A DNA stretch of 7,500 nt from NCBI GenBank assembly GCA_965371325.1, contig CBDUXZ010000083.1, forward strand, positions 1-7,500, given 5' to 3'. Positions 2,127-7,500 of the stretch are shown piece after piece (the stretch's first letter is position 1; each line of letters begins with the position of its first letter). The position numbers and the translations under genes are program-made. A model generated the notes under the pieces. It had not been told where the DNA came from, did not search any database, and was given only the letters and a program-made list of their open reading frames with translations. Source of the DNA: CBDUXZ01 sp965371325 [NCBI: uncultured bacterium]. GTDB taxonomy: Bacteria > JAUYMQ01.

Positions 2127-4220
2127 ATGCCGTCGGTGAAGCGACCGAGGATAGACGAGCGGGCAAAGCGGGCGGAGAAGGATTTCCGCATTGTCAGTGA
2201 GTTCACACCGAAGGGCGATCAGCCCCGGGCGATCGAGGAGCTGTGCGCCAATCTCGATCGCGGCATGGATCACCAGGTGCTTCTTGGAATCACCGGCTCG
2301 GGAAAGACGTTCACGATGGCGCAAGTGATTGCGCGAATGGGACGTCCGGCGCTCATTATTGCGCCGAACAAGACACTCGGCGCGCAGCTCTTCACCGAGT
2401 TTCGCGATCTCTTTCCCGATAACGCGGTCGAGTACTTCGTTTCTTACTACGATTACTACCAGCCGGAAGCCTACGTACCCCGCACCGACACCTACATCGA
2501 GAAGGATTCTCACATCAACGAGGAGATCGACAAGCTGAGGCACTCCGCAACGCGCTCGGTGCTCTCCCGGCGCGACGTGATTGTCGTGGCCTCCGTCTCC
2601 TGTATCTACGGCCTTGGCTCGCCCGATTCCTACTTCCAAATGCTGCTGTTCTTCGAGACCGACGCCGCGATGACGCGCGAATATGCCCTGAGAAAGCTGG
2701 TGGACATGCAATACCAGCGGAACGACGTCGATTTTCACCGAGGCACTTTCCGGGTCCGCGGCGACGTCATCGAGATCTTCCCGGCCTACGAGGGGGATCG
2801 GGCGTTGCGCGTGGAGTTTTTCGGAGACTACATCGAATCGATCGCCGAGATAGACCCCCTCCGGGGGAGGGTTGTTCGCAAGCTGCGGCGGGTGGCGATC
2901 TATCCGGCCAGCCATTACGTGACGACGGAAGAACGGCTGAAGAAAGCGATCGACACCATCGCCCATGAGCTTCACGGCCGCCTGGCCGATCTGCAATCAT
3001 CGGGAAAGCTGCTGGAGGCCCTGCGGCTCGAGCAGCGCACGAACTTCGATCTCGAAATGCTAGGCGAGATGGGTTTTTGTCACGGCGTCGAGAACTATTC
3101 GCGGCACCTCGACGGCCGGAGGGCCGGGGAGCCCCCCTCCACGCTGCTCGATTATTTCCCGGACGACTTTCTCCTCTTTATCGACGAGAGTCACATCGCT
3201 GTTCCGCAAATCGGTGCGATGTACCGCGGAGACCGCTCACGCAAAGAGACCCTCGTCGAGTATGGCTTTCGCCTCCCCTCGGCGCTCGATAACCGGCCTC
3301 TGCGCTTCGAGGAGTTCGAGGCACGTGTCAGGCAGTGCATCTACGTTTCGGCTACGCCGGCCGACTGGGAACTCGAACGCTCGAAAGGGCTCCTGGTGCA
3401 GCAGATCATCCGTCCGACAGGGCTCATGGATCCGCGCATCGAAGTGCGTCCCGCCAAGGGCCAGGTGGACGATCTGCTGGACGAGATCCGGACCCGCGTG
3501 GAGCGGGGGGATCGGGTCCTCGTGACCACTCTTACCAAACGCATGGCGGAGGAGCTCACGGAGTACTACGCGGACCTCGGGGTGCGGGTGAGATATCTCC
3601 ATTCCGACATCCAGACCCTCGAGCGGATGGAAATCCTGCGGGATCTGCGGACGGGAACCTTCGATGTCCTCGTAGGGATCAATCTGCTTCGAGAGGGGCT
3701 CGATCTCCCCGAGGTGAGTCTTGTGGCGATCCTCGACGCGGACAAGGAGGGCTTTCTCCGCAGCGAGCGCTCCCTCATGCAGACCTGCGGACGGGCGGCG
3801 CGGAACCTCGACGGGACGGTGTTCCTCTACGCCGATACCACGACCAAGTCGATGAAGCGCACGATCGACGAAACCAACCGGCGCCGGAAGCTCCAGGAGG
3901 CTTTCAACCGGAAGAATGGAATCACGCCCCGGACCATCAGCGCGACCATTCACGACATCCGCACGTCCATCTACGAGCAGGACTACGTCACCGTTTCCGT
4001 GGCCGCCGAATCAGAGGAGCCCTATCTTCCGCCCGACAAGGTCCGCAGGACGGTGGAGGCGCTCCGGAAAGAGATGCGGGAGGCCGCCGCCAAGCTCGAG
4101 TTCGAGCGGGCCGCCGGGCTCCGCGACCGCATCCGGAAGATCGAGACGCAGGAGCTCAGCGCGGGAGGCGACGGCGCCGTGACCGCCCCGGAGGCGGCAG
4201 GCCCGCCGCGGGCGCGTTGA
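2127..4220 (+). CDS. uvrB: UvrABC system protein B (excision nuclease helicase subunit)
   Basis: UvrB receives damaged DNA from UvrA, verifies the lesion with its beta-hairpin and recruits UvrC for dual incision, in the cytoplasm. The protein is 697 aa against about 670 typical; the excess is a basic N-terminal leader of some 18 residues and a short Ala/Pro tail. Motifs in order: [11 protein letters not shown] (26-36); Walker A GITGSGKT (54-61) with Lys60; the damage-probing beta-hairpin around [20 protein letters not shown] (107-126); Walker B/DEAD-like FIDESH (351-356); [10 protein letters not shown] (406-415); helicase motif [13 protein letters not shown] (519-530); motif [11 protein letters not shown] (552-560) with Arg556 and Arg559; and a C-terminal UVR domain at about 635-670 that contacts UvrC. 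The start is supported by GAGGTG at 2117-2122. No clear promoter is visible in the 113-nt gap before it. Its stop overlaps the next gene's TTG. Confidence 0.98.
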
Positions 4221-4966: not shown

Positions 4967-4987
4967 GGGAACGGCCCGTTCATGAGA

Positions 4988-4993
4988 TATAAT
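4988..4993 (+). promoter_or_regulatory. Candidate -10 box for uvrC, possibly leaderless
   Basis: A perfect TATAAT sits in otherwise GC-rich DNA, followed by only 6 nt (TCGCCC) before the ATG at 5000. Transcription normally starts about 7 nt after a -10 box, which would place the first base at or next to the A of that ATG and give a leaderless uvrC mRNA. There is no recognisable TTGACA-like -35 at 16-18 bp spacing and no extended TGn. If instead the ATG at 4982 is used, this sequence is coding (Met-Arg-Tyr-Asn) and may be fortuitous. Confidence 0.45.
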
Positions 4994-4999
4994 TCGCCC

Positions 5000-6862
5000 A
5001 TGAGCATCGAGGAGAAGCTTCATAGCGTTCCCGCCGATCCCGGCGTGTATCTCATGAAAGACCGGGACGATCGGATCATCTACGTCGGCAAGGCCAAGAG
5101 CCTCCGGCCCCGCGTGCGCGGCTACTTCAGGAAGGGAACGGGCGACACGCGGGCTTCCGTCCGGTTTCTCGTCAAGCGTGTGGCCGATCTCGACTGGTTC
5201 GTCACGGGGACCGAAAAAGAGGCCCTCATCCTCGAGAACAACCTCATCAAAAAGCACCGTCCCCGTTACAACATCAAGCTCCGCGACGCCAAGACGTACA
5301 TCGGGCTTCGCCTGAACGTGCAGGATCCCCTCCCGCGGCTGACCACCACCCGGCGCGTGAAACATGACGGATCCCTCTACTTCGGCCCTTACACGTCGAG
5401 CCAGCTGATGCGGGAGACGGTCAATCTCATCCAGAAGATCTTTCCGATTCGCTCCTGCTCCGACGCGGTCTTCCGCCAGTACCGCAGATCGGGGCGCCCC
5501 TGCATCGAGCACCAGATGAAGCGCTGCGCGGCTCCCTGCTGCGACTACATCGACCAGGCGCGGCACGGTGAGCTGGTCAAGGGTGTGATCTACTTCTTGC
5601 GGGGGCAGAACAAGGAGCTTCTGGGCGATCTTCGCGTGAAGATGAAGGCGGTTTCGAAGGCCGAGGATTACGAGCAGGCGGCCGTCCTCCGGGATCGGAT
5701 CGGCGCCATCGAGGCGACCATCGAACGACAGCGCGTGGTCTCGGGAAAGGAGACGGATCGGGACGTGTTCGGTCTCGCGCGGGAGGAGAACCAGGTCGAA
5801 GTGCAGCTGCTCTTCGTGCGGCGGGGAAAGCTCATCGGGGGGGCCAACTACCCCCTCCGGGGCGTGCAGCTCGACGACGGGGAGGCGCTCTCCTCCTTCG
5901 TCTCCCAGTACTACGCGCGCGATCGGGTCGTTCCCGACGAGGTGCTGCTTCCGATGCCCGTGGAGGGGGCGGGGGCCCTCGCGGAATTTCTGAAGGAGGA
6001 GTCCGGGCGGCGGGTGCGCGTGTTTGCGCCGAAACGGGGGGAAGCCGCTTCCCTCGTGGAGATGGCCTCCGCAAACGCCCAGGCGGCCCTCGATAAGCGG
6101 CTTGCCAGCCACCAGGCGATCGATGCTGCGCTTGACGAGCTTCGGGAGCGGCTGCGCCTGCGCCGGCGTCCGGAGCGGATTGAGTGTTACGACATCAGCA
6201 ATCTGCAGGGCAAGTTCGCCGTGGGTTCCTGCGTCGCGTTCAACGCCGGGAAACCGGACACCTCCCGCTACAAGAAGTTCCGGATCAAGGGGCTCGACAC
6301 GCCCGATGACTACCGGATGATGAAGGAGGTGCTCTCGCGCCGATTCCGCCGGGCAGAGGAGGAGCACGCGTTGCCGCATCTCCTTTTGCTGGATGGCGGA
6401 AAAGGGCAGCTCGGGATCGCGCTCGAGGTCCTGCGCGAGCTCGAAATCGACGGCGTCGACGTGGCGACCGTGGCCAAGTACGCGGAGACGACGGAGACAG
6501 GAGCACGCGTGGTTGGGCCCAGGGCGATGGCGCGAACCTCGGAGAAGGTCTACATCCCGAACCTGAAGGACCCGGTCCGATTTCCCTCGAATTCGTCGGC
6601 CATGTTCCTGCTTCAGCGCATCCGCGACGAATCGCATCGCTTCGCCATCGCGTATCACAAGCTTCTCCGCAGGAAGATCACGCTCCTCTCGGCGCTCGAG
6701 GAGATTCCCGGAATCGGGACGGAGCGACGCAGACTTCTCCTGCGCCGGTTCGGAAGCCTCCGGCGCGTTCGCGAGGCGAGCGAGAAGGCGCTCGGGGAGG
6801 TTCCCGGCATCACCCGCGAGACCGCGCGCGCGATACGCGCGTTTCTCCGCGAGGGGAACTGA
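5000..6862 (+). CDS. uvrC: UvrABC system protein C (dual-incision endonuclease)
   Basis: UvrC makes the 3' and 5' cuts around a lesion once UvrB is loaded. The protein is 620 aa, about normal. The N-terminal GIY-YIG nuclease carries PGVY (14-17), IYVGKAK (27-33), Arg38, Tyr42, catalytic Glu79 in LENNLIK, and Asn91. Cysteines 153, 168, 176 and 180 match the iron-sulfur cluster ligands described in E. coli UvrC. A UVR domain (about 211-244) binds UvrB. The C-terminal RNase H-like nuclease has Asp398 in YDISN, DDY (436-438), Asp465 in LLLDGGKGQ and His546 in DESHRFA. Two helix-hairpin-helix motifs follow (PGIG at 570-573, PGIT at 602-605). Start choice: ATG 5000 gives the usual distance to PGVY and has the TATAAT just upstream; ATG 4982, six codons earlier, has GAGGGA at 4965-4970 and remains possible. 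It lies 33 nt (or 15 nt) after the membrane gene. Confidence 0.97.
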   Translation: MSIEEKLHSVPADPGVYLMKDRDDRIIYVGKAKSLRPRVRGYFRKGTGDTRASVRFLVKRVADLDWFVTGTEKEALILENNLIKKHRPRYNIKLRDAKTYIGLRLNVQDPLPRLTTTRRVKHDGSLYFGPYTSSQLMRETVNLIQKIFPIRSCSDAVFRQYRRSGRPCIEHQMKRCAAPCCDYIDQARHGELVKGVIYFLRGQNKELLGDLRVKMKAVSKAEDYEQAAVLRDRIGAIEATIERQRVVSGKETDRDVFGLAREENQVEVQLLFVRRGKLIGGANYPLRGVQLDDGEALSSFVSQYYARDRVVPDEVLLPMPVEGAGALAEFLKEESGRRVRVFAPKRGEAASLVEMASANAQAALDKRLASHQAIDAALDELRERLRLRRRPERIECYDISNLQGKFAVGSCVAFNAGKPDTSRYKKFRIKGLDTPDDYRMMKEVLSRRFRRAEEEHALPHLLLLDGGKGQLGIALEVLRELEIDGVDVATVAKYAETTETGARVVGPRAMARTSEKVYIPNLKDPVRFPSNSSAMFLLQRIRDESHRFAIAYHKLLRRKITLLSALEEIPGIGTERRRLLLRRFGSLRRVREASEKALGEVPGITRETARAIRAFLREGN

Positions 6863-7000
6863 TTGCACTGCGCTGTTTGGGTTGAAAGCGGAGACGAACC
6901 CGTGCAGATGGACGGAGACCGAGAGCGCCCGTCCGGGCCGATAGGATAGGATTCAGTATCGACCGGAGTGCAGTATTTGCAGAATCTTGATAAACCCTCG
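6863..7000 (+). other. Gap after uvrC, first part: nothing firm
   Basis: No convincing gene or RNA is visible here. Two weak pairings are present: GGGTT (6879-6883) with AACCC (6897-6901), and GCCC (6927-6930) with GGGC (6935-6938). Neither is followed by a T-run, so I do not call either an intrinsic terminator for uvrC. A short direct repeat ATAGG/ATAGG occurs at 6941-6950. Confidence 0.5.
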
Positions 7001-7002
7001 CG

Positions 7003-7026
7003 GGAAAAGGTTTTCCGGATTCGGAA
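7003..7026. repeat. Two overlapping near-palindromes, candidate activator site
   Basis: GGAAAA (7003-7008) and TTTTCC (7011-7016) form a perfect 6-bp inverted repeat with a GG spacer. It overlaps a second one, TTCCG (7013-7017) and CGGAA (7022-7026), around GATT. They lie about 150-175 bp upstream of the predicted sigma-54 start site, a usual distance for enhancer-binding protein sites. Function is inferred from position and symmetry only. Confidence 0.35.
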
Positions 7027-7044
7027 GGGAAAGGGTCAGATTGA

Positions 7045-7056
7045 GTAAAAGTTTAC
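7045..7056. repeat. Inverted repeat GTAAA-AG-TTTAC, candidate operator
   Basis: Five-bp arms around a 2-bp centre form a compact, operator-like dyad about 120-130 bp upstream of the predicted sigma-54 start site. It could be an enhancer-binding protein half of the array that begins at 7003, or chance. Confidence 0.3.
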
Positions 7057-7061
7057 CCACA

Positions 7062-7094
7062 CCCGCGCTGACCCGCGGGACAAGCGATTTTTTT
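7062..7094 (+). terminator. Weak candidate terminator (GC hairpin then T7)
   Basis: CCCGCG (7062-7067) can pair with CGCGGG (7074-7079) across a 6-nt loop, and a run of seven T follows at 7088-7094. The 8-nt gap between stem and T-run is too long for a classical rho-independent terminator. The segment also contains ACCCGCG repeated 10 bp apart (7061-7067 and 7071-7077), which suits a DNA-binding site as well as a terminator. It is about 200 nt after the uvrC stop. Confidence 0.25.
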
Positions 7095-7104
7095 ACGCCC
7101 CAAG

Positions 7105-7130
7105 TTCCCGGAATTGAAGGGAGTTTTTTT
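7105..7130 (+). terminator. Weak candidate terminator (short hairpin then T7)
   Basis: TTCCC (7105-7109) pairs with GGGAG (7119-7123), one pair being G-T, over a 9-nt loop, and seven T follow directly at 7124-7130. Geometry is right but the stem is short, so termination would be inefficient. It would insulate the sigma-54 gene from uvrC read-through. The T-run also contributes the left arm of the next inverted repeat. Confidence 0.3.
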
Positions 7131-7149
7131 CACGTGGAATGTGTGAAAA
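7127..7149. repeat. 7-bp inverted repeat abutting the -24 promoter element
   Basis: TTTTCAC (7127-7133) and GTGAAAA (7143-7149) are perfect inverted arms separated by 9 bp, with centres 16 bp apart. The right arm ends one base before the -24 element. A dimeric regulator bound here would touch the polymerase footprint, which suits a repressor or a factor bending promoter DNA better than a distal enhancer-binding protein. The assignment is positional inference. Confidence 0.45.
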
Positions 7150-7150
7150 T

Positions 7151-7166
7151 TGGCACGGAACCTGCT
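7151..7166 (+). promoter_or_regulatory. Sigma-54 (RpoN) -24/-12 promoter
   Basis: TGGCACGGAACCTGCT matches the sigma-54 consensus TGGCACG-N4-TTGCW at all positions except the first T of the -12 block. The invariant GG (7152-7153) and GC (7164-7165) have the required spacing of 12. Predicted transcription start is near 7177, leaving a leader of about 100 nt before the ATG at 7276. Transcription from such promoters needs an ATP-driven enhancer-binding protein; none is encoded in this window. Confidence 0.72.
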
Positions 7167-7202
7167 TAATCTTCGCCTGTCCAGGCTGCCTCTGTATGGG
7201 GA

Positions 7203-7260
7203 TGAGCTAGGGCTGTTGCGCTCACTGTGTAAGAAAGCTGCTCCCAGCGCTCGGGAGCAG
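7203..7260 (+). other. Structured 5' leader with two hairpins
   Basis: In the predicted leader, TGAGC (7203-7207) can pair with GCTCA (7220-7224) over 12 nt. A stronger stem follows: CTGCTCCC (7238-7245) with GGGAGCAG (7253-7260) over a 7-nt loop, perfect over 8 bp. There is no T-run after it, and it ends 6 nt before the Shine-Dalgarno, so it is more likely mRNA-stabilising or translational control than a terminator. I do not recognise a known riboswitch class. Confidence 0.4.
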
Positions 7261-7266
7261 GCCCTT

Positions 7267-7272
7267 GGAGGG
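7267..7272 (+). promoter_or_regulatory. Shine-Dalgarno fixing the start at 7276
   Basis: GGAGGG lies 3 nt before the ATG at 7276 and supports that start. Part of it (AGGG, 7269-7272) could pair with CCCT at 7262-7265 in a small hairpin, which might partly hide the site. Confidence 0.7.
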
Positions 7273-7275
7273 TAG

Positions 7276-7500
7276 ATGTTCCAGCAGTCCGCCACGGTCG
7301 GAAAGCGCCTGTCCGCTTTGGTGGGGAGGTGTGTTTTCCTGACGGCGGCGTTGTTACTCCTGCTGCCCGGCACGGCGAGCGCGCGTCTCTTCACCGTCTG
7401 TAACATAACGACCTGTCCGGCCGAGGGTAGCACCATCACCTTTTTGGACACCGCAAGCGGGCTTGGTGGGACCATCGATCCCGTTCTGTCGATATCGGTG
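7276..7500 (+). CDS. Secreted protein of unknown function, 3'-truncated by window edge
   Basis: The frame stays open from the ATG to the window end (75 codons). The N-terminus is a clear Sec signal peptide: basic residues at Lys10, Arg11 and Arg18, a hydrophobic core at about 19-30 (CVFLTAALLLLL), a Pro-Gly turn, and a good AXA-type cleavage site after ASA (35-37). The mature protein would begin RLFTVCNITTCPAEG, with two cysteines five residues apart (42 and 47), then a Thr/Ser/Gly-rich stretch suggestive of a beta-rich exported or surface protein. There is no lipobox, so a lipoprotein is unlikely. I do not recognise a family. A Shine-Dalgarno at 7267-7272 and a sigma-54 promoter at 7151-7166 mark it as the first gene of its own regulated unit, distinct from the repair cluster. 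Confidence 0.8.
   Translation, partial: MFQQSATVGKRLSALVGRCVFLTAALLLLLPGTASARLFTVCNITTCPAEGSTITFLDTASGLGGTIDPVLSISV

Follow-up and report, generated by a model that had tools for sequence, protein, structure and literature searches.

The question that this locus raises is what switches on the gene that begins at its very end, and what kind of exported protein this gene encodes. In the stretch of DNA analysed here (the window, 7,500 nucleotides), the end of cysS is followed by a lipase-like gene, by uvrB and a ydjM-like gene, and then by uvrC and the start of the exported-protein gene. We named cysS, uvrB and uvrC by eye and the lipase-like and ydjM-like genes by Pfam. Between uvrC and the exported-protein gene there is an intergenic region of 413 nt, and the first 75 codons of the gene lie inside the window (Table 1). 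The lipase-like gene (1291-2013, PF01674), between cysS and uvrB, also encodes a protein with a signal-like start.

Table 1. Features of the uvrC to exported-protein region, in window coordinates; L001 is the orthologous contig of the closest relative found.
Feature	Position	Strand	Remarks
uvrC, 5' neighbour	4982..6862	+	synteny anchor with L001, 76% identity
enhancer box A GGGAAAAGGTTTTCCG	7002..7017	+	centre 141 nt before the -24 T; 12/16 positions kept in L001
enhancer box B GAGTAAAAGTTTACCC	7043..7058	+	centre 100 nt before the -24 T; 12/16 positions kept in L001
sigma-54 -24/-12 promoter TGGCACGGAACCTGCT	7151..7166	+	17/18 positions of 7150-7167 kept in L001
predicted transcription start	7177	+	placed by spacing, 12 nt after GC
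conserved leader element GTTGCGCTCACTGTGTAAGAAAG	7214..7236	+	18/23 positions kept in L001
8-bp inverted repeat	7238..7260	+	between leader element and ribosome-binding site
Shine-Dalgarno GGAGGG	7267..7272	+	conserved in L001
exported-protein gene, 5' part	7276..7500	+	runs past window end; orthologue is a PEP-CTERM protein
predicted signal peptide, 36 aa, ending TASA|R	7276..7383	+	by eye

Regarding the promoter, we compared the region with the sigma-54 consensus TGGCACGN4TTGCW. The site TGGCACGGAACCTGCT has one mismatch to it, with GG at 7152-7153, GC at 7164-7165 and 10 nt between them, and it scores 14.8 of 15.5 under our own weighting. Among 3000 shuffled versions of the 413-nt intergenic region (plus strand), none attained this score; among 200 shuffled versions of the entire window, with both strands counted, 2 did. 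A second sigma-54-like match, with a score of 13.5, lies within cysS at 389. Loose matches with up to 3 mismatches are no more frequent in the window than expected (39 found vs 50.5 expected), and therefore the case for the promoter rests on its position and its conservation.

The closest relative that we found is the MAG contig JAUYMQ010000387.1, titled Deltaproteobacteria bacterium (L001, from genome G001); UvrC identity to the window falls to 47% in the next relative. At the same place 3' of uvrC, L001 has TGGCACGGAATCTGCT, which is followed by a gene of 272 codons. The identity between the window and L001 is 94% at the promoter, 69% in an enhancer block at 6999-7060 (43/62), 78% in the leader element and 81% at the ribosome-binding site and start (13/16), compared with 42-48% in four other segments; these blocks come from two sequences and were drawn after the alignment had been viewed. 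This conservation is stronger evidence for the predicted promoter than the chance scores are. Furthermore, G001 encodes RpoN (449 bits, cut-off 277) and many regulators of the NtrC family. It also contains 22 exact matches to TGGCACGN4YTGC (L126-L147), some of which precede regulator-like, PilM and ammonium-transporter genes (named by eye), others being inside apparent coding frames; such matches before genes are as expected for a working sigma-54 system.

A preliminary description, made from the letters of the window, had proposed a -24/-12 site with correctly spaced GG and GC, a leader of about 100 nt, GGAGGG, an ATG and a signal peptide. We recovered each of these elements at the positions of Table 1, the leader measuring about 99 nt from the predicted start to the ATG at 7276 and the protein having a signal-peptide-like start. 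The further proposal of an activator-requiring sigma-54 promoter for an exported protein gains support from the conserved promoter, from the paired boxes described below and from the RpoN and NtrC-family regulators of the relative. It is hardly credible that the -24/-12 match is accidental and that the gene is transcribed from a different promoter, since, although loose matches are not enriched in the window and the start position is predicted from spacing, the score is out of reach of the intergenic shuffles, the promoter is far better conserved than the less conserved segments, and a scan of 6800-7500 found no sigma-70-like promoter.

Regarding the leader, a search of G001 with up to 2 mismatches found the leader motif solely at the orthologue. 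Taken as a whole, the leader folds unremarkably (z -0.22), and the leader element has no match in Rfam. The sole Rfam match in the window is a sub-threshold one to RAGATH-18, on the minus strand within uvrC (6605-6673; 25 bits vs a gathering score of 44.9), which is probably due to chance.

The nature of the exported protein becomes clearer from its orthologue in L001, which is syntenic after uvrC and aligns with the window peptide at 48% across residues 2-65 (E 2.9e-7). The C-terminus of the orthologue, IPEPGTILLLGSGLVALGLGERRRRRGRG, is a PEP-CTERM sorting signal, with 19.8 bits for TIGR02595 (cut-off 16) and 20.6 bits for PF07589, 0.1 bit short of the cut-off of 20.7. Because the window stops before the C-terminus, the PEP-CTERM identity of the window protein rests on orthology; on these grounds it is very probably a PEP-CTERM protein and a substrate of exosortase. 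Pfam gave one match for the window peptide, far below the cut-off (DuoxA, E 0.12), and the structure predicted for the orthologue from its single sequence was unusable (mean pLDDT 37.8). When 192 genomes (G001 and relatives) were searched with the orthologue, 4 had a match, and the listed matches outside G001 all fell within residues 198-271, which is the sorting-signal end. In G001 we found an exosortase (226 bits, cut-off 25.7), a second, partial exosortase match, and 19 PEP-CTERM matches over the cut-off among the 22 listed at E up to 10; one PEP-CTERM match over the cut-off was also present in each of 2 out of 14 control genomes. The genome of the window would be expected to encode RpoN and exosortase as well. 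Thus, where the preliminary description spoke of an unknown secreted protein, the signal-peptide-like start agrees with secretion, and "unknown" can be replaced, since the L001 orthologue belongs to the PEP-CTERM proteins and its genome encodes exosortase.

The same description had placed the gene at the head of a separate operon continuing beyond the window. In L001 the orthologue has behind it, at 3458-3490, a terminator-like hairpin with a T run (two overlapping calls, where shuffled sequence would give 1.0), and the next gene probably starts only at about 3614. Therefore, the operon is unsupported and the gene looks like a single-gene unit. The same strand of L001 does carry further genes beyond this point, and one of these begins like a signal peptide, but given the hairpin and the position of the next start we consider it quite improbable that the gene heads an operon extending past the window.

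Upstream of the promoter there are two palindromes like GGGAAAA-N2-TTTTCCC, 41 nt apart, box A having 1 mismatch and box B 3 mismatches. Both are found in the orthologous region of L001 with the same 41-nt spacing and at the same distances of 100 and 141 nt from box centre to the -24 T. The boxes recur elsewhere in G001: when up to 2 mismatches are allowed, the related pattern GGGAAAANTTTTCCC has 25 occurrences vs 6 for the reversed control, and the N2 palindrome with up to 1 mismatch has 10 vs 1. Eight of these ten close copies (two of the eight promoters being near-duplicates) precede a sigma-54-like site scoring at least 13.5, with the box centre 100-128 nt from the site, and one of the two remaining boxes sits 34 nt from a contig end. 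Counting the window, 8 of 9 promoters have a second box 20-21 or 41 nt away, that is, about two or four helical turns, this second box being weak in some of them (up to 5 mismatches). A site scoring at least 13.3 at 85-150 nt was found for 7 of the 20 listed GGGAAAANTTTTCCC places in G001 and for 1.2% of random positions (249 of 20,000) in fetched G001 DNA, which was not itself chosen randomly. Leaving aside the query gene and one duplicate, it was found for 5 of 18 listed places (P about 2e-6, with the score threshold and the distance range fixed after the first promoters had been seen).

For the genes behind these box promoters in G001, secretion was judged by eye from signal-peptide-like starts. 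The targets on the contig of L001 are two PEP-CTERM genes, beyond which the same strand carries another two PEP-CTERM matches. On contig C634 the target is a secreted protein of 443 residues, followed by two PEP-CTERM genes and with the partial exosortase match nearby; on C317, the exosortase contig, it is an open frame of 1626 residues, and C55 and C478 add a secreted protein and a truncated secreted protein respectively. Pfam assigned no family to the box-promoter proteins of C317, C634 and C55. A box with up to 2 mismatches lies directly 5' of 2 of the 19 PEP-CTERM matches, most of them having none in the 5' DNA searched (1500 nt for 15 of the 19, 53-895 nt for the others), and, beside these two, four PEP-CTERM matches on C335 and C634 lie on the same strand downstream of a box-promoter gene.

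Sigma-54 control of PEP-CTERM genes was predicted in Haft et al. 2006 (PMC1569441), in whose accessible text the PEP-CTERM box is a 17-nt motif ending in TTTACA, 32-92 nt before the sigma-54 site (mean 62.8). As far as that text goes, our locus shares with this system an exported PEP-CTERM protein, a single gene, a long intergenic region and an enhancer box before a -24/-12 site. It differs in the box, which resembles GGGAAAA-N2-TTTTCCC and is usually paired, and in the spacing, which is at or just beyond the far end of the range described there, the nearest box of the window ending 92 nt before the promoter and so exactly at the described maximum. Neither TTTACA nor TGTAAA is present in the 200 nt upstream of any of the nine promoters (154 nt in C61), the hexamer being the part of the 17-nt motif that was compared. 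For separating the two systems the spacing is less decisive than the box sequence. Because the box differs while the spacing is less decisive, we file the locus as a variant beside the Haft system; from its sequence it appears to work like that system and is not assigned as a member.

A further difference concerns the regulators. The exosortase locus of G001 (L156/L157, on C317) contains the exosortase, EpsI and a PrsT-type TPR protein, and the place expected for PrsK/PrsR is taken by a kinase and a regulator of AtoS/AtoC-like type. The TPR protein reaches 449.5 bits for TIGR02917 (cut-off 312.2) and passes the cut-offs of other TPR families too. None of the 47 matches to the PrsR model in this draft genome reaches the cut-off, several of them being fragments; the best has 437.8 of 502.6 bits, and the regulator of the exosortase locus has 406.6. 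The PrsK model (TIGR02916) was tested on the kinase adjoining the exosortase, which is not PrsK by this model (68.8 of 300) and whose best model is AtoS (276 of 646).

It could be argued that this is an ordinary PrsK/PrsR PEP-CTERM promoter whose box is a lineage variant, and that PrsR has diverged, is truncated at the edge of a contig or falls in a gap of the draft. The shared architecture, the PrsT-type protein that adjoins the kinase and regulator of the exosortase locus, the GTAAA..TTTAC contained in box B and the gap of 92 nt all speak for it. Nevertheless, we find it rather unlikely in view of the sub-threshold PrsR matches, even with fragments among them that are unable to reach the cut-off, the low PrsK score of the adjoining kinase and the absence of the hexamer upstream of the nine promoters.

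Other known cases can be compared with our locus in the same way. Aquincola is a distant proteobacterium. The pepA gene of Aquincola tertiaricarbonis RN12 is a PEP-CTERM gene shown by primer extension and an rpoN1 mutant to be RpoN1-dependent, its start is mapped, and its motifs TGGCAC and CTGCTT are both in the window promoter; according to the accessible text, however, pepA lies upstream of prsT and the earlier predicted enhancer sequence is present there (PMC9850573). DVUA0057 of Desulfovibrio vulgaris is a sigma-54 response regulator with DAP-chip binding upstream of PEP-CTERM genes (PMC3333781, PMC4641369), and in the accessible parts of these papers it resembles our system in its sigma-54 promoters and its exopolysaccharide locus, whereas it is encoded in a plasmid exopolysaccharide-related operon; this likeness is one of description, not of motif letters. 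Francke 2011 (PMC3162934) links sigma-54 in general with surface polysaccharide and exported components, but it is a general survey, and the term PEP-CTERM is absent from its accessible text. In the literature that we found, so far as its text was accessible, PrsK/PrsR with its box is the one system proposed to place exosortase substrates under sigma-54, and a search of titles and accessible text gave no earlier description of a box like ours at PEP-CTERM or polysaccharide genes. That sigma-54 controls PEP-CTERM genes is thus known, and what appears to be new here is the paired boxes like GGGAAAA-N2-TTTTCCC.

We scanned 386 genomes (G001 and relatives) for boxes and inspected stretches of ten of these other than G001. 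In three of the ten, G087, G108 and G245, boxes with a sigma-54 site are located in loci with polysaccharide assembly or export genes. In G108 (L265) and G245 (L261) paired boxes and a promoter lie between two NtrC-type regulators, and polysaccharide genes follow. An exosortase match was found in 69 genomes, which include G087 and do not include G108 and G245; the box is therefore not an exosortase box as such.

Two broader associations were also considered. A tie between box and exosortase across genomes was rejected, because 10 of the 43 genomes with a box excess (forward minus control of at least 3) had an exosortase match vs 59 of the 343 others (P 0.40). A general link between the palindrome and sigma-54 was unsupported, since in other genomes 2 of 30 palindromes in the best loci stand beside a sigma-54 site vs 0.5% of random positions; in a second set of box loci 2 of 3 do.

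Regarding the activator, the C-terminal helices of the Fis-type domain are the ones that read DNA. In the regulators of G108 and G245 these helices are SYKALLYKM and SYKTLL-KI, and the same helices occur in a tandem pair on contig C635 of G001. The second member of this pair is the best scorer for all four G108 and G245 regulators among those compared, a part of the G001 regulators having been fetched, with 43-46% identity; the regulator of the exosortase locus has 36-40%. A similar helix is found in one more of the G001 regulators with readable ends, on C292. Because of the same helices and the best scores, a homologue of the C635 pair would be the best candidate for the activator, to which we give roughly an even chance, and the exosortase-locus regulator comes second. 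The latter is linked on C317 with the kinase, the PrsT-type protein, EpsI and exosortase, and the box promoter of the 1626-residue frame is on the same contig; that it, rather than the C635 pair, is the activator seems nonetheless somewhat unlikely, given that the helices of the box-flanking regulators in G245 and G108 match the C635 pair and not C317. By eye we saw no box in the C635 intergenic region, where the G108 and G245 loci would suggest one as autoregulation, and C635 is also missing from the list of 20 places.

The most coherent explanation of the locus, which we regard as probable as a whole, is a switch in which a sigma-54 (RpoN) promoter with two enhancer boxes activates one gene, which encodes an exported PEP-CTERM protein. 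An NtrC-type response regulator, of which the C635 pair is the leading candidate, would bind the paired palindromes upstream and open the promoter by ATP hydrolysis. The protein would then be exported by its signal peptide, be handled by exosortase through the C-terminal sorting signal and finally be placed in the surface or exopolysaccharide matrix.

More tentatively, and with slightly less confidence than an even balance would imply, we suggest that sigma-54 reaches exosortase substrates here by a second route, which does not involve PrsR. It would consist of the paired enhancer like GGGAAAA-N2-TTTTCCC and an NtrC-type activator, whose relatives flank the same boxes in polysaccharide-export loci, in two other genomes without detected exosortase, and in this lineage it would have spread to PEP-CTERM genes and further genes for secreted proteins at scattered places. 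If this is true, a single signal would induce the matrix together with the proteins that it receives. A different box with a recognisable pairing rule would make it possible to delimit such regulons in uncultured relatives by sequence. It would also point to one testable activator linking the matrix-polysaccharide genes to the matrix-protein genes. The finding is ordinary in kind, as sigma-54 and a surface protein are, with its special detail in the different paired box and a possible link to polysaccharide export.

One of the box targets is of another type. The duplicated region of C61 and C128 (L185, 1-604, and L186, 2433-2783) has enhancer boxes and a sigma-54 site, and what follows is only an open frame of 20 codons, hydrophobic, MEATVGMCVIGALLLFLTSS. 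In C61 a terminator-like hairpin, seen by eye, comes next, and C128 ends earlier. This region possibly encodes a small membrane peptide or a non-coding RNA. The 12-mer GTTGCGCTCACT is common to C61 and the leader of the window.
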